This document shows positions 11,745-28,489 of a stretch of 64,000 bases of DNA, piece by piece. The notes under the pieces were generated by a model that was not told where the DNA came from, searched no databases, and was given only the letters and a program-made list of their open reading frames with translations. Each line of letters starts with the position of its first letter. The stretch's first letter is position 1. Where the stretch lies: the NCBI RefSeq assembly GCF_900187975.1, contig NZ_FZPC01000022.1, positions 62,001-126,000 of the forward strand. Direction: 5' to 3'. The translations under genes were made by a program, and so were the position numbers. The stretch comes from Pseudomonas delhiensis (GTDB lineage: Bacteria > Pseudomonadota > Gammaproteobacteria > Pseudomonadales > Pseudomonadaceae).

Positions 11745-12899
11745 TCACCGGCTATTCAGGGGCAGGCCCTCCGGCACCTGGCGGTTCTCTTCCAGCAATT
11801 CGGCCACCAGCTCCTGCAGTGCCTCCGCCACATCGCCGCCGCGCGCCAGATGCCGGCGCAGGCTGCGCACCTGCCGCTGTGCGCTGCCGCCCGAGCGGGC
11901 CAGCCGGCAGGCGTGGGCGTAGGCCCATTCGTTGCCGGCGCGGGCCGGTGCCGCGCACTGTGCCCAGGCCTGCGCCAGCCATTGCGCCAGGTCGACGCAG
12001 CGCCCGTCGGCCAGCAGGAAGCGCGCCCGGCAGCCGTGGCGCTGGGCCTGCCAGTAGTTCTCCGCCAGCAGCGCGCGCGCCAGGTGCGGGTCACCGGCAT
12101 CGGCATCGGCCATGGCCTGGGTGAGCAGCGCGCGGAACAGCCCGGCGATGCACAGCGCGTCGGCCAGGCGCGGGCAGGCGTCGCTGATGCGCAACTCCAG
12201 GGTCGGGTAGCGCGCCGAGGGCCTCAGGAACCACCAGGCGTGGCCCGGCTCGCGCATCAGGCCCCGGGCGTGGAGCAGCTTCAGGTGCGCCTGGTAGGCC
12301 GGCTCGTCGGCGAACCACGGCGGCATGCCCATCCGCGGCCATTGCCCGGACAGCGCCCGGCGGTAGCTGGCGAGCCCGGTGTGGCGGCCCTGCCAGAACG
12401 GCGACGAGCAGCTCAGCGCCAGCAGCAGCGGCGCCCAGGGCAGCACCCGGTTCATCAGCGCCACCCGGTCCTGCCCGGGCGGCACCTCCACGTGCACGTG
12501 CAGGCCGCACAGCAGGCTGTTGCGGGCCGGCTGCACGTAGTCCTCGAACAAGGCGCGGTAGTGCGGCTGCTCGCTGGGCGCGGCATCGGCGAGGCGGCTG
12601 AACGGGTGCGTGCCCACCACCAGGCTGCGCAGGCCGTGGGCGCGGGCCAGGTCGGCCAGCTGCGCGCGGCCGCGGGCGAGGAAGGCGACGGCCTCGCCCA
12701 ACTGGCGGAACACCGGGCTGACCAGTTCCGCCTGGCACTGGAACATTTCCTCGGCGAAGCAGTCGCCCAGCGCCCGGCGGCAGGCCGGCACCCAGTCGGG
12801 CGGGACGTGCCGGGCCAGGTCGAGGCTGGCGCCGTCGAGAAGAAAGGCCTCCTCCTCGATGCCGAAGCGGGCCGGTGGATACGCGGGCGTCGCGGCCAT
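11745..12899 (-). CDS. YbdK-type carboxylate-amine ligase (glutamate-cysteine ligase 2 family)
   Basis: 384 aa. The N-terminal FGIEEEAFLLD is the hallmark of the GCS2/YbdK branch of the ATP-dependent carboxylate-amine ligases. Other family segments are FQCQAELVSPVF, CGLHVHVEVPPGQDRV (metal/substrate His) and TLELRISDACP. YbdK of E. coli has only weak glutamate-cysteine ligase activity, so the true amine acceptor here is unknown. The start at 12899 is chosen because it places the FGIEEE motif about 12 residues in, as in relatives. It is divergent from the haem-oxygenase-like enzyme and methyltransferase genes, which suggests a shared pathway. Confidence 0.87.
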   Translation of the reverse strand: MAATPAYPPARFGIEEEAFLLDGASLDLARHVPPDWVPACRRALGDCFAEEMFQCQAELVSPVFRQLGEAVAFLARGRAQLADLARAHGLRSLVVGTHPFSRLADAAPSEQPHYRALFEDYVQPARNSLLCGLHVHVEVPPGQDRVALMNRVLPWAPLLLALSCSSPFWQGRHTGLASYRRALSGQWPRMGMPPWFADEPAYQAHLKLLHARGLMREPGHAWWFLRPSARYPTLELRISDACPRLADALCIAGLFRALLTQAMADADAGDPHLARALLAENYWQAQRHGCRARFLLADGRCVDLAQWLAQAWAQCAAPARAGNEWAYAHACRLARSGGSAQRQVRSLRRHLARGGDVAEALQELVAELLEENRQVPEGLPLNSR

Positions 12900-13051
12900 G
12901 GTGATCCCTGCCGGAAGGGTTACAGGATCGACGCCGCGGCCCGGCCCCGGGTTCCGTCTTTCCTGCGCGCGCCCGCTCGGGCCGATCGTTGAAACCTTCG
13001 CCGCCGGCGCCGATCGCACTCTTCAGGAGCCATCGCCAGAGGAGCCGCCCC

Positions 13052-14407
13052 ATGAACCTGCCCTGCACCCCGCCCCGCGAAGAGGCGGTCGATGCCCGCT
13101 CGCTGCACGCGGCCCTGCTCCACGCGCCGGAGGAGCACCTGGCGGCGGCCGACGCCTTCCTCCAACGGCAGCTGCAACGGGCGACCGAGCGGCCCGTGGA
13201 CCTGCCCGACACCCCGGCGGCCTGGCCGCAGTGGCTGGACGCGCGCGCCGCCCGCACCGCGCGGGACTATGCGCGCTACCTGGCCGAGCGGCATGCCGGC
13301 GCCCCGCGGCGCTACTTCCGCAACCGTGCCCACGCGCTCCACTTCCTGCGCGGCGTGGCCCCCACCAAGCTGGTGGACGGCGCCTGGCTGTACGGCGTGC
13401 TGGCCCATGCCGGCGACGCCCGGCTGCTGCCGCTGGTGCACACCTACCTGGAGGAGCTGGGCCGCGGCGTGGCCGGCTGCAACCATGTGCTGATCTACCG
13501 CCACCTGCTGGAAAGCCTGGGCTGCGCCGGCACGTCCGACCTGTCCGCCGAGCACTACCTGCAGGGCACGGTGCAACTGGCGCTGGGCTGCCTGGCCGGG
13601 CAGCGCCTGCCCGAGCTGATCGGCTACAACCTGGGCTACGAGCTGCCGCCGCTGCACCTGCTGGTGACCACCTGGGAACTGCAGGAACTGGGCATAGACC
13701 CCACCTACTTCCGCCTCCACGTGACCATCGACAACGCCAGCTGCGGCCATGCCCGGCGGGCCCTGCAGACGCTGTTCAACCACCTGCCGGACAAACCGCG
13801 GCGCGCGGCCTTCCTCGCCCGGGTGCGGGCCGGCATGGGGCTGAACGACGTCGGCCTGTCCAGTACCCAGGTGATCGACGGCTTCGACCTGGACCACGAA
13901 CTGCTGGCCATGCTGGAGCGCAAGCAGCCCTTCGCCCGCCACCAGCACAGCGACCGCACGCGCATCCAGGGCCGCACCCTCAACCAGTGGCTGGTCCAGC
14001 CCTGGGGCGTGGCCGCCCTGTTGCGGGCGCTGCAGCAGGAAGGCTGGATCCTGCGCGACGCCGACCCGGCGCGCAGCCGCTTCTGGCGCCTGGTCAGCGG
14101 CCCCGACGCCGCCATGTTCGGCGTCTTCGATGGCTACGAGCAGCAGCTGCTGCACGACTGGATAGCCGGCAGCTGGGCGCCCTCGCCCGCCCCGGTCCGG
14201 CACGCGCCGCCGCGACCGCTGGCGCTGGAGCCGGCGCCGGCCGACCTCGACGAGGAGGAACGCCGGCTGCGCCGCGAACTGGCCCAGCTGGTGCCGCACC
14301 AGCGTCGCCAGCACCTGCTGCCGCTGCTGGCCCCGCAGCGCCACTGGACGCCCCTCGGCCTGCTGGCCACCCGCCTGTTCAGCCAGGACCTGGGGGTGGC
14401 CCCATGA
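13052..14407 (+). CDS. Haem-oxygenase-like iron-containing redox enzyme
   Basis: 451 aa, helical. The segment ELGIDPTYFRLHVTIDN followed by ASCGHARRAL carries a His-x3-Asp-x5-His set (His223, Asp227, His233) as in the haem-oxygenase-like di-iron oxidase (HDO) superfamily; a further candidate ligand set is in YLEELGRG...NHVLIYRHLLE. HDO members oxidise small molecules or fatty acids (for example UndA, SznF). The substrate here is unknown. A long C-terminal segment (about 370-451) is Arg/Leu/Pro-rich. The stop overlaps the next ATG (ATGA), so it is translationally coupled to the methyltransferase. A GGAG site lies 7 bp before the ATG. Confidence 0.8.
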   Translation: MNLPCTPPREEAVDARSLHAALLHAPEEHLAAADAFLQRQLQRATERPVDLPDTPAAWPQWLDARAARTARDYARYLAERHAGAPRRYFRNRAHALHFLRGVAPTKLVDGAWLYGVLAHAGDARLLPLVHTYLEELGRGVAGCNHVLIYRHLLESLGCAGTSDLSAEHYLQGTVQLALGCLAGQRLPELIGYNLGYELPPLHLLVTTWELQELGIDPTYFRLHVTIDNASCGHARRALQTLFNHLPDKPRRAAFLARVRAGMGLNDVGLSSTQVIDGFDLDHELLAMLERKQPFARHQHSDRTRIQGRTLNQWLVQPWGVAALLRALQQEGWILRDADPARSRFWRLVSGPDAAMFGVFDGYEQQLLHDWIAGSWAPSPAPVRHAPPRPLALEPAPADLDEEERRLRRELAQLVPHQRRQHLLPLLAPQRHWTPLGLLATRLFSQDLGVAP

Positions 14408-15354
14408 CTGCACTGCCGCCGCGCCTGGAGGCCCTGCTGGCGCTGGGGCTGCGCCTGCGCCGGGAAGGCTACGCCTTCGTCACCGTGAGCCCGGCCAGCC
14501 ATGCGCGGGTCAATGCCCGCGAGGAAAACGCCCTGGCCCGCGACCTGCGCGACATCTTCGGCTGGAGCCGGCCCTTCGCCGACGGCCAGCTCGAGCGCCC
14601 GCTGTTCTCCCTGCTGGCGGCCGCCGACCTGCTGCACCGGGACGGCCGCCACTGGCGCAGCAAGGTGCGCTGGTCGAGCCTGGAGGACCAGCTGTTCGTG
14701 CACTCGGCCTACCCCACCCAGGAGGCCGAGGCGGTGTTCTTCGGCCCCGACACCTACCGCTTCGCCCGCGCCATCGGCCAGCACCTGCAGGCACTGGACA
14801 GCCGCGACGTCCATCGTGCGGTGGACATCGGCTGCGGCGCCGGGCCCGGCGCCATCCTCCTCGCCGGGGCCTGCCCGCGGGCGGAAGTGCACGCCGTGGA
14901 CATCAACCCCCACGCCCTGGCCTTCACCCGCGTCAACGCGCTGCTGGCCGAGGCGCCGCAGCTGCAGGTGCGCCGCAGCGACCTGCTGGAGGGCCTGGCC
15001 GGCGACTTCGACCTGATGGTGGCCAACCCGCCCTACATGCTCGACCCAGCCCAGCGTACCTACCGCCACGGCGGCGGTTCCCAGGGGGCGGAGCTGTCGC
15101 TGCGCATCCTCGAAAGCGCCCTCGGCCGCCTGGCCCCCGGCGGCAGCCTGCTGCTCTACACGGGCGCCGCGGTCATCGACGGCGAGGCGCCGCTGTGGCG
15201 CCAGGCGAGCCGGCTGCTGGCGGCCCGCCCCGGCTGGGAATGGCGCTACGAGGAACTGGACCCGGACGTGTTCGGCGAGGAACTGGAGCAGCCCGCCTAC
15301 CGGCAGGTGGAGCGCATCGCCGCGGTGCTGCTGACCTTGCGCCGCCTGGCCTGA
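14404..15354 (+). CDS. Class I SAM-dependent methyltransferase, PrmC/HemK-like
   Basis: 316 aa. SAM-binding motif I is AVDIGCGAGPGAILL, the acidic loop is VHAVDINPHAL, and motif IV is Asn208-Pro-Pro-Tyr211, the signature of enzymes that methylate amide or planar nitrogens (PrmC, N6-adenine enzymes). The N-terminal 130 residues are a separate domain with no obvious relative. It overlaps the redox enzyme gene by ATGA. Because it is locked to that gene, a small-molecule or peptide substrate made by the redox enzyme is more likely than release factors; this is inference. Confidence 0.87.
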   Translation: MTALPPRLEALLALGLRLRREGYAFVTVSPASHARVNAREENALARDLRDIFGWSRPFADGQLERPLFSLLAAADLLHRDGRHWRSKVRWSSLEDQLFVHSAYPTQEAEAVFFGPDTYRFARAIGQHLQALDSRDVHRAVDIGCGAGPGAILLAGACPRAEVHAVDINPHALAFTRVNALLAEAPQLQVRRSDLLEGLAGDFDLMVANPPYMLDPAQRTYRHGGGSQGAELSLRILESALGRLAPGGSLLLYTGAAVIDGEAPLWRQASRLLAARPGWEWRYEELDPDVFGEELEQPAYRQVERIAAVLLTLRRLA

Positions 15355-20188: not shown

Positions 20189-22315
20189 TCATGCCGGCAG
20201 CGCCCCCACCTGCGCTTCCCTGGCCCAGATACGGTGCTGCAGCAACGCGTTCTTCAACCCGCCGAACACGTCCGCCACCGTCGCCCCCATCACCAGGCCA
20301 TCGTCCGGCTGCAGGCCCAGCTGCCCCGGCAGGGCCTGGCCGTCGCCGCTGAAGGCCAGCGGCTTGAGGTGCTTGTAGGCCTCCAGCAGGTAGTGCATGC
20401 CGGCGCCGTCCGCGCCCAGGGTGACCGCCACCCCGCCGGGCACGTAGACCGCGTCGAAGGCCACCGAGGGTAGGCCGTCCCAGGTGCCCTGGGGCGTCAG
20501 GGTGGCGCCGCTGCCGGCCTTGACCGGCGCCGCCGTGGGGGCGATCAGCCTGGCGCTGGCGCCCTCCGCGCCCAGGGCCTGGAGCATGTCGCCGACCTCC
20601 CCTTCGCTGGCGCCGTCGGCGATCAGGATCGCCACCTTGCGCGAGCGGATGTCGCCGGGCAGCAGGTTCACCTGGCTCAACGCCGGCGAGGGCTGCGGCG
20701 GCGTGCGCCGCGGGGCCCGGGCGGTGACCTGCACGCCGATGCGCTGTGCCACCCGTGCGGCCAGCTGGGCGTCGATGTTCGCCAGCACCTCGTTGACCTC
20801 GCGTTCGCGGATGGCCTGGCGCTCCACCTTGCCCAGCTCGAAGGCGTAGGCCGCCACCACGTGGTTCTGCTCGGCCTCGCTCAGGCTGTGCCAGAACAGC
20901 GCGGCCTGGCTGAAGTGGTCGCCGAAGGAGTCCGGGCGCTCGCGCACCTTGGTGCCGGTCATGGGTTCGTGGTAACTGACGAAGCCGCCCTGGCGCGCCG
21001 CCGGCGGCGTCTCCCGGGGCCAGCCGGCGTCGATGGAGTCGGGCTCGTAGGAGGCCCGCCCGCGATGCAGGGTGTGCTGGTGGAAGGCGTCGCGCTGGTT
21101 GTTGTGGAACGGGCACAGCGGCTGGTTGATGGGGATCTGGTTGAAGTTCGGCCCGCCCAGGCGCAGCAGCTGGGTGTCGGTGTAGGAGAACAGCCGGCCC
21201 TGCAGCAGCGGGTCGTTGGTGAAGTCGATGCCCGGCACTATGTGGCCGACGTGGAAGGCCACCTGCTCGGTCTCGGCGAAGAAGTTGTCCGGGTTGCGGT
21301 CCAGCACCATGCGCCCGAGCACCTGCACCGGCACCTGTTCCTCGGGCACCAGCTTGGTGGCGTCGAGCAGGTCGAAGTCGAACTTGTCCTGGTCGTCCTC
21401 GGCGATCAGCTGCACGCCCAGCTCCCATTCGGGGTAGTCGCCCTTCTCGATGTCTTCCCAGAGCGTGCGGCGGTTGAAGTCCGGGTCCTTGCCGGCGAGC
21501 TTCTGCGCCTCGTCCCAGACCAGCGAGCAGGTGCCGGACTTCGGCCGCCAGTGGAACTTCACCAGGGTGCTCTGGCCATTGGCGTTGACCAGGCGGAAGG
21601 TGTGCACGCCGAAGCCCTGCATGTTGCGGAAGGCGATGGGGATGGCGCGGTCGGACATCAGCCACATGACCATGTGCGCCGACTCCGGCTGCAGCGAGAC
21701 GAAGTCCCAGAAAGTGTCGTGGGCCGAGGCGCCGGTGGGGATCTCGTTGTGCGGCTCGGGCTTCACCGCGTGGACGAAGTCGGGGAACTTGATCGCGTCC
21801 TGGATGAAGAACACCGGCATGTTGTTGCCCACCAGGTCGAAATTGCCCTCCTCGGTGTAGAACTTCACCGCGAAGCCACGCACGTCGCGCACGGTATCGG
21901 CCGAGCCGCGCGGCCCCTGCACGGTGGAGAAGCGCACGAACACCGGGGTGCGCTTGCCGGCCTTGCCGAGGAACGCCGCCCTGGTCAGCGCGCTGCAATC
22001 GTCGTAGGCCTCGAAGTAGCCGTGGGCCGCCGAGCCACGGGCGTGGACCACGCGCTCGGGAATGCGCTCGTGGTCGAAGTGGGTGATCTTCTCGCGCATG
22101 ATGAAGTCTTCGAGCAGCGAGGGGCCGCGCGGGCCGGCGCTCAGGGTGTTCTGGTTGTCGGCGATGCGCGTGCCGGTATTGGTGGTCAGGGGCTGCCCGG
22201 TGGCGTCCTCGCGGTAGCGCTCCAGTTGTTCGAGCTTCTCGTTGCCGTTGCCGCGGTCGGTGGTCTGGGTCCCCGCCAGTTGGCTGTGCTTGCCGGACTC
22301 TTTCTTCTGTGTCAT
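20189..22315 (-). CDS. katE: Large-subunit monofunctional catalase, HPII type
   Basis: 708 aa, the size of clade-2 catalases. Active-site His91 is in [12 protein letters not shown], the Asn in [10 protein letters not shown] (about 164-165), and the haem-ligand Tyr in [10 protein letters not shown]. The His of [11 protein letters not shown], which in HPII forms the His-Tyr cross-link, is also kept. The C-terminal domain (about 545-708; [27 protein letters not shown]) is the flavodoxin/DJ-1-like domain found only in large catalases. It removes H2O2 in stationary phase. TGAAC on the minus strand at 22391-22395 lies 76 bp upstream, in a divergent promoter region shared with the four-gene operon at 22498. 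Confidence 0.96.
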
Positions 22316-22390
22316 CTGTCCATCTCCTGATCAGGTGGGCGGCGCCCATGGGCGCGCTGGCTCTTGCTTGGGGGCGGGCGCGGCGGCGGA

Positions 22391-22446
22391 GTTCAGGCTT
22401 TTTTCCCGGCGGTGCGCAGGCGGCGCGTTCGGCGTTCGGTTTGAAC
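22391..22446. promoter_or_regulatory. Divergent TGAAC promoter motif pair between katE and the 22498 operon
   Basis: The arms are GGAGTTCAGGCTTTTTTCCC at 22388 (TGAAC towards katE) and CGGTTTGAACCTGCGG at 22437 (TGAAC towards the acyl-CoA dehydrogenase-like gene). The TGAAC starts are 51 bp apart and divergent. The GAACCTGCGG extension is the same as at 5688-5697, upstream of the first DUF4142 gene. A shared factor could switch on katE and the operon together. Confidence 0.5.
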
Positions 22447-22497
22447 CTGCGGCGCTGCATGGCGGTCGGCTGGGAAACGACCTTCGCCGGAGCCGTC

Positions 22498-23523
22498 ATG
22501 CCCCACGACCTGCCCATCGGCCTGCTGCAGGCCCTCGCCGACTTCGAACTCCCCCGCGACCTCAACCGCCAGCCGGCCACCCTGGGCAGCCGCCTGCGCG
22601 AGCTGTGCGCCGCCGGCCTCGACCAGCTGCCCCGCCCCGGCAGCGGCCTGACCCTGCAGCGCTGGCAGGCGCTGGCGGCGGTGTCCGGCAGCGACCTGTC
22701 GTTGCTCAAGCTGTACGAGGGCCACACCGACGCCCTGGCGATCCTCGCCGAGCTGGCCCCCGAGGTGCCGCGCCGCCCCGGCATCTGGGCGGTGTGGGCC
22801 GCCGACCCGCCGGCCCGGCTGGTGCGCATCCAGGCGCGCCGGGGCGACGAGGTACGCATCAGCGGGGTCAAGCCCTGGTGCTCCGGCGCCGCCCAGGTCG
22901 ACCGCGCCCTGGTCAGCGTCCGTGACGAGGACGAGCGCCCGCAGCTGGTGGCGGTGGACCTGGCGCAGCCCGGCGTGCGGGTCGCCGAGGGCGGCTGGAA
23001 CGCCGTGGGCATGGCCGCCACCGCCAGCGTCGAGGTCACCTTCGAGGCGGCCGAGGCGCGTTGCGTGGGCGGACCGCTGGCCTACCTGGAGCGCCCGGGC
23101 TTCTGGCACGGCGCGGCGGGCATCGCCGCCTGCTGGTACGGCGCCGCCAGCCGCCTGGCCAGCTACCTGCAGCATGGGCATACCGACGATCCCCACGCCA
23201 TGGCCCACCTGGGCGCGGTGGACGCCGCCCTGGCCGGCGCCGCCGGCGCGCTGCGCGAATGCGCCAGCTGGATCGACGACAACCCCGACGCCTGCGCCGA
23301 ACTCGGCGCACGGCGGGTGCGGGCCCAGGTCGAGGGCGCCGTGGAGGCGGTGCAGTGGCACGTCGGCCGCGCGCTGGGCGCCACGCCCTTCTGCCGCGAC
23401 CAGCACTTCGCCCAACTGGCCGCCGACCTGCCGGTGTTCCTGCGCCAGAGCCATGGCGAGCGCGACCTGGCCTGCCTGGGGCTGCGCCTGACCGCCCAGG
23501 CCACCGAGGCCTGGGCGCTATGA
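22498..23523 (+). CDS. Acyl-CoA dehydrogenase-like flavoprotein, first gene of a four-gene operon
   Basis: 341 aa. The middle carries acyl-CoA dehydrogenase-like segments: RRPGIWAVWAADPP, EVRISGVKPWCSGAAQVDRA (the flavin-site SG.K.W.SG pattern of ACADs) and VEVTFEAAEA. The C-terminal helical bundle follows. It is shorter than typical 380-aa ACADs and I cannot place the catalytic Glu, so it may be an oxidase or a non-canonical flavin enzyme. The stop overlaps the next ATG (ATGA). The start at 22498 is supported by the position of the TGAAC motif upstream and lack of similarity before it. Confidence 0.8.
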   Translation: MPHDLPIGLLQALADFELPRDLNRQPATLGSRLRELCAAGLDQLPRPGSGLTLQRWQALAAVSGSDLSLLKLYEGHTDALAILAELAPEVPRRPGIWAVWAADPPARLVRIQARRGDEVRISGVKPWCSGAAQVDRALVSVRDEDERPQLVAVDLAQPGVRVAEGGWNAVGMAATASVEVTFEAAEARCVGGPLAYLERPGFWHGAAGIAACWYGAASRLASYLQHGHTDDPHAMAHLGAVDAALAGAAGALRECASWIDDNPDACAELGARRVRAQVEGAVEAVQWHVGRALGATPFCRDQHFAQLAADLPVFLRQSHGERDLACLGLRLTAQATEAWAL

Positions 23524-24281
23524 GCGCGGCACAGGACCCGATCGCCGCGGCCGGCGCCGGCACCGCGCCCGGTGCCTGGCGCACCTGGCCGGGCCTGCAG
23601 CGACTGCCGCGGATTACCCCGCCGGCGCTGCTGGGCGGCGGGCGCCTGGTGCTGGTGGCGCCGCACCCCGACGACGAGGTGCTGGGCTGCGGCGGCCTGC
23701 TGGCCAGCCTGGGCGCTATGGCCGGCGAGACGCTGCTGGTGTCGGTCACCGACGGCGAGGCCAGCCACCCCGGCTCGCCCCTGTGGCCCCGCGAGCGCCT
23801 GCGCGAAGTGCGCCCGCAGGAGAGCCGCGAGGCCCTCGCCCGCCTCGGCCTGGACCTGCCCCGCCTGCACTGGCGGCGCCTGCGCATGGCCGATGGCCAG
23901 GTCGCTGCGGCCACCCTCGACGCCGCCCTGCGCGGCCTGCTGCGCCCCGGCGACAGGCTGGTCAGCACCTGGCGCCACGACGGCCACCCGGACCACGAAC
24001 AGGTCGGCCTGGCCTGCGCGGCGGCGGCCGCCGCCCGCGGCGCGCGCCATTGCGAAGTGCCGATCTGGGCCTGGCACTGGGCCGAGCCCGGCGACCCGCG
24101 CCTGCCCTGGGCGCGGGCCCGGCGCCTGGACCTGGACGAGCGCGCCCTGTGGCGCAAGCGCCGGGCCATCGCCGCCCATGCCAGCCAACTGCAGGCGGAC
24201 CCCAGCCGCGGCGCCGCCCCCATCCTCGGCCCGCACCTGCTGGAAACCCTCAGCCAACCCTTCGAGGTGTACTTCCTGTGA
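23520..24281 (+). CDS. PIG-L/LmbE family N-deacetylase
   Basis: 253 aa. The zinc site is explicit: LVLVAPHPDDEVLGCGG (about residues 42-58) with the PHPDDE motif and RHDGHPDHEQVG with the third ligand His. PIG-L enzymes remove N-acetyl groups from amino sugars such as GlcNAc-PI, GlcNAc-inositol or bacillithiol precursors. The operon neighbours (glycosyltransferase, NodS-like methyltransferase, acyl-CoA-dehydrogenase-like protein) point to an amino-sugar conjugate as substrate; its identity is unknown. It overlaps both neighbouring genes by 4 bp. Confidence 0.9.
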   Translation: MSAAQDPIAAAGAGTAPGAWRTWPGLQRLPRITPPALLGGGRLVLVAPHPDDEVLGCGGLLASLGAMAGETLLVSVTDGEASHPGSPLWPRERLREVRPQESREALARLGLDLPRLHWRRLRMADGQVAAATLDAALRGLLRPGDRLVSTWRHDGHPDHEQVGLACAAAAAARGARHCEVPIWAWHWAEPGDPRLPWARARRLDLDERALWRKRRAIAAHASQLQADPSRGAAPILGPHLLETLSQPFEVYFL

Positions 24282-24862
24282 GCCTGCCCGCCAGCCATTT
24301 CGAGGCGCTGTACGCCGGCGATCCCGACCCCTGGGCCTTTCGCACCCGCTGGTACGAGCGGCGCAAGCGCTCGCTGCTGCTGGCCTGCCTGCCGCGCCCG
24401 CGCTTCGCCCGCGGTTTCGAGCCGGCCTGCGCCAACGGCGAGCTGAGCATCGAACTGGCGCAGCGCTGCGACCAGCTGCTGTGCAGCGACCCCAGCGCCA
24501 CCGCCGTGGGCCTGGCGCGCCAGCGCCTGGCCAGCTGCGACCACGCCCGCGTACGCCAGGGCGGCCTGCCGCAGGACTGGCCCGCCGGCCGTTTCGACCT
24601 GGTGGTGCTCGGCGAGCTGGGCTACTACCTCGCCCCGCCGGCCTGGCGCCTGGCCTGCGAACGCGCCGCCGCCAGCCTGGAACGCGGCGGCGCGTTGGTG
24701 GCCTGCCACTGGCGCCACCCGATCCAGGGCTGCGAGATGGCCGGCGACGACGTCCATGCCCTGCTCGCCGAGGCCATGGGCGCGCCGGCGCGGGTTCGCC
24801 ACCTGGAGCCGGACTTCCGCCTGGAACTGTGGTTCGACGACAGCGCCGGGGCCGCCCCGTGA
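24278..24862 (+). CDS. NodS-like SAM-dependent methyltransferase
   Basis: 194 aa from a GTG start overlapping the previous stop (GTGA). The N-terminal HFEALYAGDPDPWAFRTRWYE is the signature of the NodS/nodulation-type methyltransferase family, and GFEPACANGELSIELAQRC is its SAM motif I. FDLVVLGELGYYL is the motif around the active site. NodS N-methylates a deacetylated GlcNAc in Nod factors after NodB; here a PIG-L deacetylase would replace NodB. GTG rather than an upstream ATG is chosen because the family motif starts 7 residues in. Confidence 0.88.
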   Translation: MSLPASHFEALYAGDPDPWAFRTRWYERRKRSLLLACLPRPRFARGFEPACANGELSIELAQRCDQLLCSDPSATAVGLARQRLASCDHARVRQGGLPQDWPAGRFDLVVLGELGYYLAPPAWRLACERAAASLERGGALVACHWRHPIQGCEMAGDDVHALLAEAMGAPARVRHLEPDFRLELWFDDSAGAAP

Positions 24863-25515
24863 TCGGCGTGCTGGTGCCGGTGCACAATGAGGAAGGCCGC
24901 CTGCGTGGCTGCCTGCTGTCGTTGCTGGAAGCGGCCCGCCACCCGGCCCTGGGCGGCGAGCCGGTGCGCGTGCTGGCGGTGCTCGACAGCTGCACCGACG
25001 GCAGCGCGGCCATCGCCGCCGAGCTGGGCGTGGCGGTGCTGCCGCTGGCGGCGCGCAACGTCGGCCAGGCCCGCCGCGCCGGCGCCCAGCACCTGCTGGG
25101 CCTGGGCGCGCGCTGGCTGGCCTGCACCGACGCCGACAGCTGCGTCGGCCCCGACTGGCTGGTGCGCCAACTGGCCTTCGGCGCCGAGGCGGTGTGCGGC
25201 ACGGTGCGCCTGGACGACTGGTCGGCCCATGCCCCCGAAGTGCGGGCGCGCTACCTGCGCCACTACCAGCCCCGCGAGGGCCACCGCCACGTGCACGGCG
25301 CCAACCTGGGCGTGTGCGCCCTCGCCTATCGCCGCGCCGGCGGCTTCCGCCCGCTGCCCTGCGACGAGGACCTGCACCTGGTACGCGACCTGGAGCGTTG
25401 CGGCGCCCGCATCGTCTGGACGCACCAGACCTGCGTGACCACCAGCGCCCGCCGCGACTACCGCGCCCACGGCGGCTTCGGCGCCTACCTGGAAAGCCTC
25501 GCCGAACCGCTCTGA
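24859..25515 (+). CDS. GT2-family glycosyltransferase
   Basis: 218 aa from a GTG start (GTGA overlap). It has the GT-A fold start IGVLVPVHNEEGRLRGCL, the nucleotide-sugar DxD-type motif CTDADSCVGPDWL, and the late acidic motif PCDEDLHLVRDLE. No membrane helices, so cytosolic, unlike NodC or cellulose synthase. It probably transfers one sugar from an NDP-donor; donor and acceptor are unknown. Last gene of the four-gene coupled operon. Convergent with the 25519 gene three bp away. Confidence 0.88.
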   Translation: MIGVLVPVHNEEGRLRGCLLSLLEAARHPALGGEPVRVLAVLDSCTDGSAAIAAELGVAVLPLAARNVGQARRAGAQHLLGLGARWLACTDADSCVGPDWLVRQLAFGAEAVCGTVRLDDWSAHAPEVRARYLRHYQPREGHRHVHGANLGVCALAYRRAGGFRPLPCDEDLHLVRDLERCGARIVWTHQTCVTTSARRDYRAHGGFGAYLESLAEPL

Positions 25516-25518
25516 GGC

Positions 25519-25761
25519 TCAGGCCGCGCCATCGGGGGCGCCGGCCTGCCAGCCGTCGCCGGGGCCGGTCGCGCCCTCGCCGGGGGTCAGCGGGACGATG
25601 CGCAGCTCGGTGATGTCCGCCGGGTTGGCGTCCGAGTGCAGGCTTTCCAGCTGGAAGCGCGCCTGGTCCGGGGTCAGGTCGCCGCCGGGGGCCTCCACCT
25701 CGTGGGTGCAGGGCTGGCCTTCGAGCTCGTAGTGGATGCGGAAACGCGGGGCTTGCGCCAT
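25519..25761 (-). CDS. Small hypothetical protein, paralogue of 15359-15574
   Basis: 80 aa starting MAQAPRFRIHYELEGQPC. It has the same small alpha/beta layout as the 71-aa protein at 15359-15574 (strand pair around a Y.L..QP motif, helix with LESLHSD, last strand ITELRIVPL), plus a Gly/Ala-rich tail. The function is unknown. Like the paralogue, it sits just downstream of and convergent to a methyltransferase-containing operon. Confidence 0.7.
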   Translation of the reverse strand: MAQAPRFRIHYELEGQPCTHEVEAPGGDLTPDQARFQLESLHSDANPADITELRIVPLTPGEGATGPGDGWQAGAPDGAA

Positions 25762-25935
25762 GGTCCTGTGCCTCCTGGGTGGGCTGCCGCCGGCGGCGGC
25801 CATTCGTCGCAACGCTTGAGCTGTCCGCGGCTCGGCGCCAGCGGTGCGTGGTCTCCGGCTGACCTGTGCGCAGGTCCAGGGTTCAGCCGCGGTCGCCGAC
25901 CGGCTGCGGCGGATGGGCATGCCGGAATGCGGTTA

Positions 25936-25960
25936 TTGCTATAAGAAAAAGTTATAACAA
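25936..25960. promoter_or_regulatory. AT-rich inverted repeat, candidate operator/promoter
   Basis: TTGCTATAA (25936-25944) and TTATAACAA (25952-25960) form an inverted repeat with one mismatch around a seven-base spacer (GAAAAAG). It is a conspicuous AT island in very GC-rich sequence. It lies in the 317-bp gap between the divergent genes at 25519-25761 and 26079-26351. CTATAAG within it resembles a sigma-S -10. The rest of the gap shows nothing recognisable. Confidence 0.4.
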
Positions 25961-26078
25961 CGGTTCGCTAGCCGGCTATCGTTCATTTCCTGGCGTCGGC
26001 TTTTCGGCGTGAGCGGGCCGAAAGGCCCCGGGCCCTGCGCGGGCACGTCTGAGCGAATCGACTACCCGGAGTCCTTCC

Positions 26079-26351
26079 ATGCAAACCTACCTGCAGGCCA
26101 AACGTATCCTCGAAGACAGCTTCGCGCCCTACGGCTGCCGCTGCACGCTCGAGGCGGACGGTTCGATGACCGTGCAATTGCTCGCGCCCAATTCCACGGA
26201 CGTGGAACTGACCGTGCCGAAGATCCCGCGGCAGGACTGGAACAGCCTGCGCGCCGTGGCCAGGCTGGCCCTGGAGCTGCGCCAGACGCTGGACCTGGCG
26301 ATACTGCAGAAGGACCGGCCGGCCTCGGCCATGCACCAGAAGGCCAGCTAG
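26079..26351 (+). CDS. Small hypothetical protein, possible DUF3509 relative
   Basis: 90 aa, soluble. The N-terminal helix (LQAKRILEDSFAPYG) is followed by a strand pair (CRCTLEADGSMTVQLL) and a Leu-rich C-terminal helix (ALELRQTLDLAILQ). The 'F..Y...C.LE.DGSMTV.L' pattern recalls the N-terminal half of the 10499 and 33514 proteins (F..Y...F..RPDGS.L..L), so it may be a short member of that family. No catalytic motif. Confidence 0.68.
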   Translation: MQTYLQAKRILEDSFAPYGCRCTLEADGSMTVQLLAPNSTDVELTVPKIPRQDWNSLRAVARLALELRQTLDLAILQKDRPASAMHQKAS

Positions 26352-26498: not shown

Positions 26499-27830
26499 AT
26501 GTCTTCCTTCCCCAGCGAAGCCGAGCGCGAACGCCTGGTCGAGCGCCTGCGCCACGCCGCCGAACCGCTGCCCGATCCGGACGCGGCGACCTTCGGCGGC
26601 TTCTTCTCGCGCTACGCCGACGGCCGGGTGGTGCTGATCGGCGAGGCCAGCCACGGCACCTCGGAGTTCTACCGGGCGCGGGCCGCCATCACCCGCCAGC
26701 TGGTCGAGCGGCACGGCTTCAACATAGTCGCCATCGAGGGCGACTGGCCGGACACGGCGCGCCTGGACCGCCACGTCCGCGACTACCCCGGCCAGCCCGA
26801 CGAAGACGCCGCCTTCAGCCGTTTCCCCAGCTGGATGTGGCGCAACCGCGAGGTGCTCGACTTCGTGCGCTGGCTGCGCCGCCACAATGCCGGCCTGCCC
26901 ATCGCCGAACGCGTGGAATTCCGCGGCCTGGACATCTACAGCCTGCGCGCCTCCATGGCCGCGGTGCTGCAGTACCTGGAGCTGCACGACCCGCCCCGCG
27001 CACGCGAGGCCCGCGAGCGCTATGCCTGCCTCACGCCCTGGCAGGACGACCCGGCGGCCTACGGCGCGCGGGTGGAATGGGGCGACGGGGATTCCTGCGA
27101 GGCGGCGGTGGTCGAGCAGCTCAACGACCTGCTGGTGGCCCGCCTGGAGAGCCTGGGCGGCGGCGAAGGCCTGTTCGATGCCGCGCAGAACGCCCGGGTG
27201 GTGCGCGCCGCCGAGCAGTACTACCGGCTGATGTACCGCGCCAGCGCCTCCAGCTGGAACCTGCGCGACAACCACATGTTCGACACCCTCAAGCAGCTGC
27301 TGCGCCACCGCGGCCGCGAGGCCCGGGCCGTGGTCTGGGCGCACAACTCGCACATCGGCGACGCCTCGGCCACCGCCATGGGCTGGCGCGGCGAGTTCAA
27401 CCTCGGCCAGCTGTGCCGCATCGCCTGGGGCGACGCGGCGGTGCTGCTGGGCATGGGCACCGACAGCGGCGAGGTGGCGGCGGCCGACGACTGGAACGGC
27501 CCGCTGCGCATCCAGCAGGTGCGCCCGGCGCTGGAGGAAAGCTGGGAACGCTGCTTCGCCCGCGCCGGCATGGCGGCCTCGCTGACCGACTGGCGTGGCG
27601 CCGTGCACGCGACGCTGCGCGGCCAGCTCGCCAGCACCCTGCTGCAGCGCGCCATCGGCGTGATCTACCGGCCGGCCAGCGAGCGCCGCAGCCACTACTA
27701 CGAGGCGGTGCTGGGCGAACAGTTCGACGCCTACCTGTGGTTCGCCCGGACCACCGCGGTCACCCCGCTGCAGCCCGGCACCGGCGAGGCGGCGCCGGGC
27801 GCGGCGGACACCTTCCCCTTCGGAGTCTGA
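26499..27830 (+). CDS. Erythromycin esterase family hydrolase
   Basis: 443 aa. Family motifs are VVLIGEASHGTSEFY (His52, the catalytic-base region), VAIEGDWPDTARLDR, FPSWMWRN, EFRGLDIYSL and AVVWAHNSHIGDA. The family includes EreA/EreB but most chromosomal members have no known macrolide activity. The next gene is a phosphoribosyltransferase 2 bp away; in Mycobacterium tuberculosis the two domains are fused in Rv2030c of the dormancy regulon, which supports a shared stress role here. TGAAC on the plus strand at 26439-26443 lies 60 bp upstream. Confidence 0.9.
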   Translation: MSSFPSEAERERLVERLRHAAEPLPDPDAATFGGFFSRYADGRVVLIGEASHGTSEFYRARAAITRQLVERHGFNIVAIEGDWPDTARLDRHVRDYPGQPDEDAAFSRFPSWMWRNREVLDFVRWLRRHNAGLPIAERVEFRGLDIYSLRASMAAVLQYLELHDPPRAREARERYACLTPWQDDPAAYGARVEWGDGDSCEAAVVEQLNDLLVARLESLGGGEGLFDAAQNARVVRAAEQYYRLMYRASASSWNLRDNHMFDTLKQLLRHRGREARAVVWAHNSHIGDASATAMGWRGEFNLGQLCRIAWGDAAVLLGMGTDSGEVAAADDWNGPLRIQQVRPALEESWERCFARAGMAASLTDWRGAVHATLRGQLASTLLQRAIGVIYRPASERRSHYYEAVLGEQFDAYLWFARTTAVTPLQPGTGEAAPGAADTFPFGV

Positions 27831-27832
27831 CG

Positions 27833-28489
27833 ATGAACGCATTCGACGACCGGCGGCACGCCGGCAAGGCCCTGGCCGAGGCGCTGCGCGAACGGCCCAT
27901 GCACGAGCCCCTGCTGCTGGCCCTGCCCCGCGGCGGCGTGCCGGTGGCCTATGAAATCTCCCTGGCCCTGCAATACCCCCTGGAACTGCTGCTGGTGCGC
28001 AAGATAGGCGCGCCCGGCCACGAGGAATACGCCGTGGGCGCCGTGGTGGAAGGCGACCCGCCCAGGTGGGTGAAGGACGAGGACCTGCTGCGCCAGCTGC
28101 GCGTGGCGCCCGGCTGGTTCGAGCGGCGCCTGGCCGAACAGCTGCGGGAAATCGAGCGCCGCCGCGTCCGCTACTGCGGGCGGCAGCCGCTGGCGTCACG
28201 CCGTGGCCGCGACCTGATCCTGGTGGACGACGGCCTGGCCACCGGCAACAGCGTGCGTGCGGCGCTGCAGGCCCTGCGCGAGGACGGCCCGCGGCGCATC
28301 ATCCTCGCCGTGCCCGTGGGGCCGCCGGCCACCGTGGAGAAACTGCGGCCGCTGGTGGACGAGCTGGTATGCCTGCTGACACCGGAGGATTTCCACTCCG
28401 TCGGCCACTACTACCGGGACTTCCACCAACTCGACGACCAGGAGGTCATCGACCTGCTCGGCCCCTCGCGCACGCCTTCGGGCGCCTGA
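27833..28489 (+). CDS. Phosphoribosyltransferase-family protein paired with Ere gene
   Basis: 218 aa. The PRPP-binding loop is DLILVDDGLATGNSVRAAL (about residues 123-141), with an N-terminal PRGGVPVAYEISLAL and LLLVRKIGAPGHEE typical of the Rv0571c/Rv2030c-like branch. A short insertion around 75-110 (GWFERRLAEQLREIERRRVRY) is helical. The substrate is unknown. It starts 2 bp after the Ere stop codon, so the two are cotranscribed and probably act together. Confidence 0.9.
   Translation: MNAFDDRRHAGKALAEALRERPMHEPLLLALPRGGVPVAYEISLALQYPLELLLVRKIGAPGHEEYAVGAVVEGDPPRWVKDEDLLRQLRVAPGWFERRLAEQLREIERRRVRYCGRQPLASRRGRDLILVDDGLATGNSVRAALQALREDGPRRIILAVPVGPPATVEKLRPLVDELVCLLTPEDFHSVGHYYRDFHQLDDQEVIDLLGPSRTPSGA

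Follow-up and report, generated by a model that had tools for sequence, protein, structure and literature searches.

A stretch of 64,000 nucleotides (nt) of a Pseudomonas delhiensis contig, hereafter the window, carries four overlapping genes (Table 1). They encode a flavoprotein of the acyl-CoA dehydrogenase (ACAD) fold (open reading frame (ORF) 1), a PIG-L/LmbE de-N-acetylase (ORF2), a methyltransferase related to NodS (ORF3) and a short GT2 glycosyltransferase (ORF4). The four genes are a conserved unit, and we regard it as fairly probable that they form an orphan operon making a small cytosolic amino-sugar metabolite, one that would be glycosylated, de-N-acetylated, N-methylated and oxidised and would be tied to stress survival. 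All of the enzyme types are familiar, and no product was found described for the combination. In the literature searched, which left most subscription papers outside, no product assigned to the four-gene set was found, and the gene terms for the set are absent from the main text of PMC7658413.

Conservation of the four-gene unit

Among 143 genomes of relatives, the methyltransferase and GT2 genes were found in one and the same set of 22 (Fisher p 2.4e-26, uncorrected for shared ancestry). As these two genes are neither scattered nor singly present, the four genes are read as one functional unit, which is what the first-pass annotation of the window had proposed. For the flavoprotein a limit of E < 1e-70 was chosen once a gap between 1e-75 and 8e-7 was visible, and 24 of the 143 relatives had a match within it (41 at E 1e-3, the extra matches being weak). 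These 24 are the 22 genomes with methyltransferase and GT2, genome G011, whose contig ends inside PIG-L, and genome G014, which has the flavoprotein alone. PIG-L was found in 29 of the relatives. The flavoprotein is unevenly distributed inside the genus (8/25), and 33 of 398 genomes of a phylum-wide sample had it at E up to 1e-15.

Members of the set were called in 125 loci, five of which are second copies; the gene caller overlooks some genes that tblastn can detect. All four genes were called in 102 of the 125 loci, the flavoprotein in 124, the methyltransferase in 120, PIG-L in 113 and GT2 in 110. The flavoprotein and the methyltransferase are the most constant pair, in loci that were selected by the flavoprotein. 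Overlaps of 4 nt were present at 79 of 112 junctions between flavoprotein and PIG-L, 76 of 111 between PIG-L and methyltransferase and 82 of 93 between methyltransferase and GT2. The pairwise distances of the four proteins co-vary across the 102 loci (r 0.87-0.93, uncorrected for the species tree), and dN/dS between the window and close relatives was 0.17-0.47 for all four genes, indicating purifying selection. In a genome of the same phylum and another class, PIG-L and the methyltransferase are fused in one ORF of 462 residues (L101:9270-10655).

The gene set is widespread. When the genomes of about 85,000 species were scanned, 547 of the first 600 pattern matches listed proved to encode a flavoprotein relative, a figure that counts matches to two patterns per gene and not species. 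The best 80 of the 547 confirmed flavoprotein matches, hereafter the named loci, comprise 79 from Pseudomonas and one from a Paucimonas metagenome-assembled genome. All four genes were present in 71 of them, and nine lacked one or more in the locus. In L154, from the non-pathogenic Pseudomonas capeferrum WCS358, the four genes are complete and in order. The plain gene order was kept in 47 of the 71 full loci and was followed with a second PIG-L gene in 13 others; in the rest, GT2 lay 3-4 kb upstream (6) or on the opposite strand (5). Downstream of the core, 14 of the best 80 named loci (L147, L159, L164, L167-L173 and others) have a further PIG-L gene; it sits after GT2 in 13 of these 14, and the median gap at junctions of this kind is 157 nt.

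Copies also occur on plasmids. The flavoprotein was found on 29 plasmid records of Acinetobacter, Cupriavidus, Pandoraea, Comamonas, Kitasatospora, Streptomyces and Embleya, and the module, whole or partial, on those of Acinetobacter, Pandoraea, Cupriavidus and Kitasatospora. Six plasmid regions were examined: four held all four genes, GT2 was split in L104, and L106 had no close PIG-L. The gene of L104, on a plasmid of Pandoraea vervacti, appears to be in two pieces at 12296-12959, and the gene is intact on the plasmid of L107. A weak PIG-L match to a neighbour gene was obtained on the Cupriavidus plasmid record at the limit of E 1e-5.

A member absent from the locus was often present elsewhere in the genome. 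Of 11 genomes searched for GT2, G275 and that of L113 had it in the locus; seven of the other nine had a copy elsewhere (for L142 about 10 kb away, on a contig whose length is the same). GT2 was present on a separate contig in G031 and G074. PIG-L was found elsewhere in five of seven whole genomes without PIG-L in the locus, including G271, whose copy shares a contig with the flavoprotein gene at a distance of about 12 kb.

Several genomes speak against an indivisible unit. PIG-L occurred without the other three genes in 6 of the 143 relatives, and G014 holds the flavoprotein only. G271 and G528 have no GT2 genome-wide, and the G528 locus (L120) is also without the methyltransferase. The flavoprotein, methyltransferase and GT2 are all present in G447 and G383, with no PIG-L at E 1e-5. 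From these four genomes PIG-L and GT2 appear to be losable or to be replaced by undetected genes, and PIG-L seems dispensable in some lineages. Genome G014 is that of P. nitroreducens TX1 (L161/L038), in which PIG-L, methyltransferase and GT2 were not found genome-wide at E 1e-25; its lone flavoprotein is either a remnant or has a second use.

The four enzymes and the proposed pathway

In the pathway that we propose, the GT2 enzyme would move an N-acetylamino-sugar, probably N-acetylglucosamine (GlcNAc), from a nucleotide sugar onto an acceptor. The PIG-L enzyme would then strip the acetyl group, the NodS-like enzyme would methylate the freed nitrogen, and the flavoprotein would carry out an oxidation, for which monooxygenase activity is more likely than CoA-ester dehydrogenase activity. 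Some genomes encode further glycosyltransferases, of the GT4, MurG-like and GT7C-like types, which may elaborate the product. The glycosylation, de-N-acetylation and N-methylation chemistry is plausible; we infer the substrate, the order of the steps, methylation on N and not on O or C, the type of oxidation and the induction by stress.

Four Pfam families were above their cut-offs in the operon, namely PIG-L, Methyltransf_25, NodS and Glycos_transf_2. ORF2 matched PIG-L with 81.3 bits against a cut-off of 28.2, and no second family matched it at E up to 1. The His2-Asp zinc site described for the PIG-L/LmbE superfamily in PMC4101496 is intact in ORF2: H49, D52 and H159, together with D51, H156 and D158, are invariant in 31 sequences. 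For ORF3 the Pfam NodS score was 27.6 against a cut-off of 24, and NodS was the best characterised profile match (7.6e-30), so the first-pass label of a NodS-like methyltransferase is upheld. The S-adenosylmethionine (SAM)-binding region and the NodS-like N-terminal DPW region of ORF3 are conserved in the family alignment and in a HMMER alignment to NodS. The solved structure 4isc is near ORF3 (E 5.4e-72); the search output names it 'Methyltransferase', without a substrate. In ORF4, Glycos_transf_2 was the sole Pfam family above its cut-off, and the best NCBIfam match, TIGR04283, was under its own. A defence system was rejected as a candidate: PADLOC gave a weak match of the methyltransferase domain to Mad2 and none for the other three genes.

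The first-pass annotation had likened the operon to a minimal Nod-factor pathway. The chemistry of Nod-factor synthesis is that of a glycosyltransferase (NodC), a deacetylase (NodB), an N-acyltransferase (NodA) and a methyltransferase (NodS). Like NodC, NodB and NodS, the operon combines a glycosyltransferase, a deacetylase and a methyltransferase of the NodS family, and the proposed series of reactions is similar. However, the operon has no NodC-type chitin-oligosaccharide synthase, its GT2 being only 218 residues long, and no NodB-type polysaccharide deacetylase, its deacetylase having the PIG-L fold. It has a flavoprotein in addition, NodA is absent among the four gene products (the rest of the genome was not searched), and ORF3 is far under the NodS equivalog cut-off (39.5 against 300 bits). 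Membership of the Nod pathway is rejected on these Pfam and NCBIfam results for the four gene products. TMG-chitotriomycin, a natural N-trimethylated glucosamine compound, is a possible chemical parallel.

The AlphaFold model of ORF1 (mean pLDDT 94.9) has the ACAD fold in Foldseek and VIA comparisons, and this includes likeness to the DszC-type fold. In Pfam only Acyl-CoA_dh_M matched, at 31.7 bits and thus below its cut-off of 33.3, so no ACAD domain was above cut-off in ORF1; the overall fold is still common to ACADs. The four best matches in the profile search were DszC/TdsC entries (2e-16 to 1e-15), above all ACAD entries. The first-pass description of an acyl-CoA-dehydrogenase-like flavoprotein therefore stands for the fold, but not for the profile search, which ranks the DszC/TdsC monooxygenases first. 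An ordinary acyl-CoA dehydrogenase is disfavoured by the profile search, and the fold scores are neutral on it.

DszC, TdsC and MsuC and the nitrososynthases ORF36 and DnmZ are like ORF1 in fold and among its best profile matches, the nitrososynthases matching more weakly than DszC/TdsC. ORF1 is shorter (341 residues) than these enzymes. Ser129 of ORF1 aligns in HMMER with Ser163 of DszC, which we take to be catalytic together with His92 of DszC. Three observations weaken the monooxygenase reading: His92 aligns with Lys71 of ORF1, the position being Lys or Arg across the flavoprotein family; two 'acyl-CoA dehydrogenase type 2' entries outrank MsuC in the profile search; and the fold scores do not tell monooxygenases from dehydrogenases. 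The family has invariant residues of its own (E74, H76, W100, R316 and Q317). Judged from sequence, ORF1 is more likely a monooxygenase than a CoA-ester dehydrogenase.

The substrates of nitrososynthases are amino sugars. Nitrososynthases were absent among the best 50 VIA rows listed, which has no bearing either way; the structures 3m9v and 4kcf are KijD3. We think it quite unlikely that ORF1 is an amino-sugar N-oxygenase acting after PIG-L and the methyltransferase to give an N-methyl-hydroxylamine or nitrone sugar. If it were, pseudomonads and acinetobacters would possess in the N-oxygenated sugar a mycothiol counterpart, a stress metabolite that traps radicals or is redox-active and that further glycosyltransferases extend in some lineages.

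The additional glycosyltransferases are best seen in P. matsuisoli (L158, the same locus as L043), where the core is accompanied by GT7C-like, MurG-like and GT4 genes; the label 'MurG-like' derives from a weak MJ1255-family match. Added members stand alongside PIG-L or the core in further genomes of the same phylum (Table 1). Six genomes, all of a single genus (g6), have the MurG-like gene next to the GT7C-like gene, on another contig or distant from the core, and GT4 lies beside the pair in both of the two g6 genomes examined for it. The MurG-like and GT7C-like genes occur in the identical 8 of the 143 relatives, all within the 22 core carriers, and were not found in the window's genome at E 1e-15. 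The core can thus occur by itself, whereas the added enzymes appear to require the core. Six MurG-like matches contain an in-frame TGA; since the ORF is intact (359 residues) in L212, the sole genome inspected, these codons are read as an edge artefact.

Stress-gene neighbours and rival explanations

Immediately upstream of the operon, on the same strand and within 300 nt, lies ligD in 33, glgX in 28 and otsA in 3 of 119 distinct loci; the junction with glgX has a zero gap or an overlap in 13 of the 28. The identities of the neighbours were established on one representative each, GlgX, TreY, TreZ and LigD by scores above NCBIfam cut-offs and OtsA and OtsB by Pfam. In the window, L090, L095 and L106 (4/119) no more than 1 kb separates the catalase gene katE from the operon, and in L094 and L103 no more than 10 kb. 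The katE gene was found in the flanks of none of the best 80 named loci and of none of seven other loci of the same genus. The katE neighbourhood noted in the first-pass annotation is therefore not conserved, and katE is ruled out as a fixed partner.

In Acinetobacter baumannii, ACICU_02432-02435 are one operon annotated as glycosyltransferase, SAM-dependent methyltransferase, LmbE and acyl-CoA-dehydrogenase-related protein, and in colistin-dependent mutants of two lineages they are down 31- to 62-fold, with otsA, otsB and a catalase falling alongside them (PMC5660220). For P. aeruginosa PAO1, PMC8084333 reports poor growth of glgX, treY and treZ mutants in salt and a role of the alpha-glucan/trehalose pathway in survival of drying and on surfaces. 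Two points weaken the connection with stress: ACICU_02432-02435 were equated with our operon from the order of their four annotations and not from sequence comparison, and the conditions in PMC5660220 are antibiotic dependence, not stress. An association of the operon with stress genes is supported by the neighbours described here and the published co-regulation in A. baumannii; the stress induction that had been suggested for the operon was itself not seen. If the product is a new protective sugar metabolite, it would be a missing component of desiccation and osmotic tolerance. The gene set is found in A. baumannii too, and its neighbours are trehalose, glycogen, non-homologous end joining and sometimes catalase genes.

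Three other functions were weighed against a cytosolic amino-sugar metabolite. The operon might tailor an envelope glycolipid or polysaccharide, GT2 adding a terminal amino sugar and PIG-L and the methyltransferase modifying it on a lipid-linked or exported glycan. Weak matches to glycosyltransferases of polysaccharide synthesis, namely EpsD, HfsG, MJ1255-type enzymes and GlcN-PG synthase, were obtained for GT2 and the added glycosyltransferases, and PLD-type, YbhN-type and EEP genes are near the operon in 29-38 loci. We nevertheless find this unlikely, since the genes in direct linkage are those of DNA repair, glycogen and trehalose and no flippase, polymerase or glycan ligase is among the 20 Pfam-named neighbour families (many smaller families were not named). 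Still less probable is a true acyl- or aminoacyl-thioester dehydrogenase in an operon that adds an acyl group to an amino sugar or trims one already there. The ACAD fold would accommodate it, but both the ranking of DszC/TdsC above every ACAD entry and the lack of an acyl carrier, CoA ligase and acyltransferase in the operon oppose it.

A redox or detoxification route resembling mycothiol or bacillithiol synthesis, in which PIG-L would act on a GlcNAc conjugate as MshB/BshB do and yield a redox-defence glycoside, is also very doubtful. As with MshA/MshB and BshA/BshB, a glycosyltransferase is paired with a PIG-L enzyme that would free the amine of a small-molecule glucosamine; BshB and MshB are among the PIG-L matches, the extended GT4 is distantly MshA/BshA-like, and the few loci with catalase within 1 kb fit such a route. 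However, ORF2 is far under the equivalog cut-offs of MshB (23.3 against 224.35), BshB1 (38.0 against 182.5) and BshB2 (34.8 against 195.25). The core glycosyltransferase is a GT2 and not a GT4, and the operon has a methyltransferase where those pathways have a cysteine ligase, which it lacks. The small N-methylated amino-sugar metabolite remains the reading that we prefer.

Gene layout, upstream region and nearby genes

As had been noted in the first-pass annotation, the four genes overlap, and the sequence and translations confirm it: ATGA joins ORF1 to ORF2, and GTGA joins ORF2 to ORF3 and ORF3 to ORF4. The ATG of ORF1 at 22498 is aligned in all six upstream regions compared; a simple gene caller favoured 22459.

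Table 1. Coordinates of the operon, its upstream region and the added glycosyltransferase genes (window positions unless a locus is given)
Feature	Position	Strand	Description
ORF1	22498..23523	+	ACAD-fold flavoprotein, 341 aa; best profile likeness to DszC/TdsC flavin monooxygenases
ORF2	23520..24281	+	PIG-L/LmbE zinc de-N-acetylase, 253 aa; H49-D52 and H156-x-D158-H159 invariant
ORF3	24278..24862	+	NodS-related SAM methyltransferase, 194 aa; near solved structure 4isc
ORF4	24859..25515	+	Short GT2 glycosyltransferase, 218 aa; D91-A92-D93 and E170-D171 invariant
katE	20189..22315	-	HPII catalase, divergent from the operon; above the NCBIfam equivalog cut-off
Intergenic katE/operon	22316..22497	.	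182 nt
TTTGAACC box	22440..22447	+	TGAACC core invariant in 6/6 aligned upstream regions; putative element only
Added glycosyltransferases (GT4, MurG-like, GT7C-like)	L043:11155-14189; L204:4478-7470; L212:5170-8115; L203:1078-8476		

The operon and katE had been thought to share a TGAAC region. Upstream of the operon, the TGAACC core of TTTGAACC is the same in all six regions aligned. TGAAC occurs 105 times across the window against 54.5 expected from shuffles, and it precedes 11 of 48 genes, 43-124 nt before the start (simulated mean 2.9). Its reverse complement precedes 10 of the 48 (simulated mean 2.6), and as the counts are nearly equal on both strands, a directional promoter role is unsupported. 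A scan of 22200-26100 for promoters of the sigma-70 type detected none.

Two further groups of genes in the window were observed. At 11748-15354 lie a GCS2 ligase gene (-), a gene for an iron-containing redox enzyme of the Haem_oxygenas_2 family (+) and an MTS-domain methyltransferase gene (+) that overlaps the latter by 4 nt. Among the loci examined, 15-19 have these families in the vicinity of the operon, and the genes look like a second orphan pathway. Downstream of the operon, at 26499-28489, a gene of the Erythromycin-esterase family is followed after 2 nt by a gene of the phosphoribosyltransferase family. The esterase-like gene is close to the flavoprotein in L035 and L038 too.

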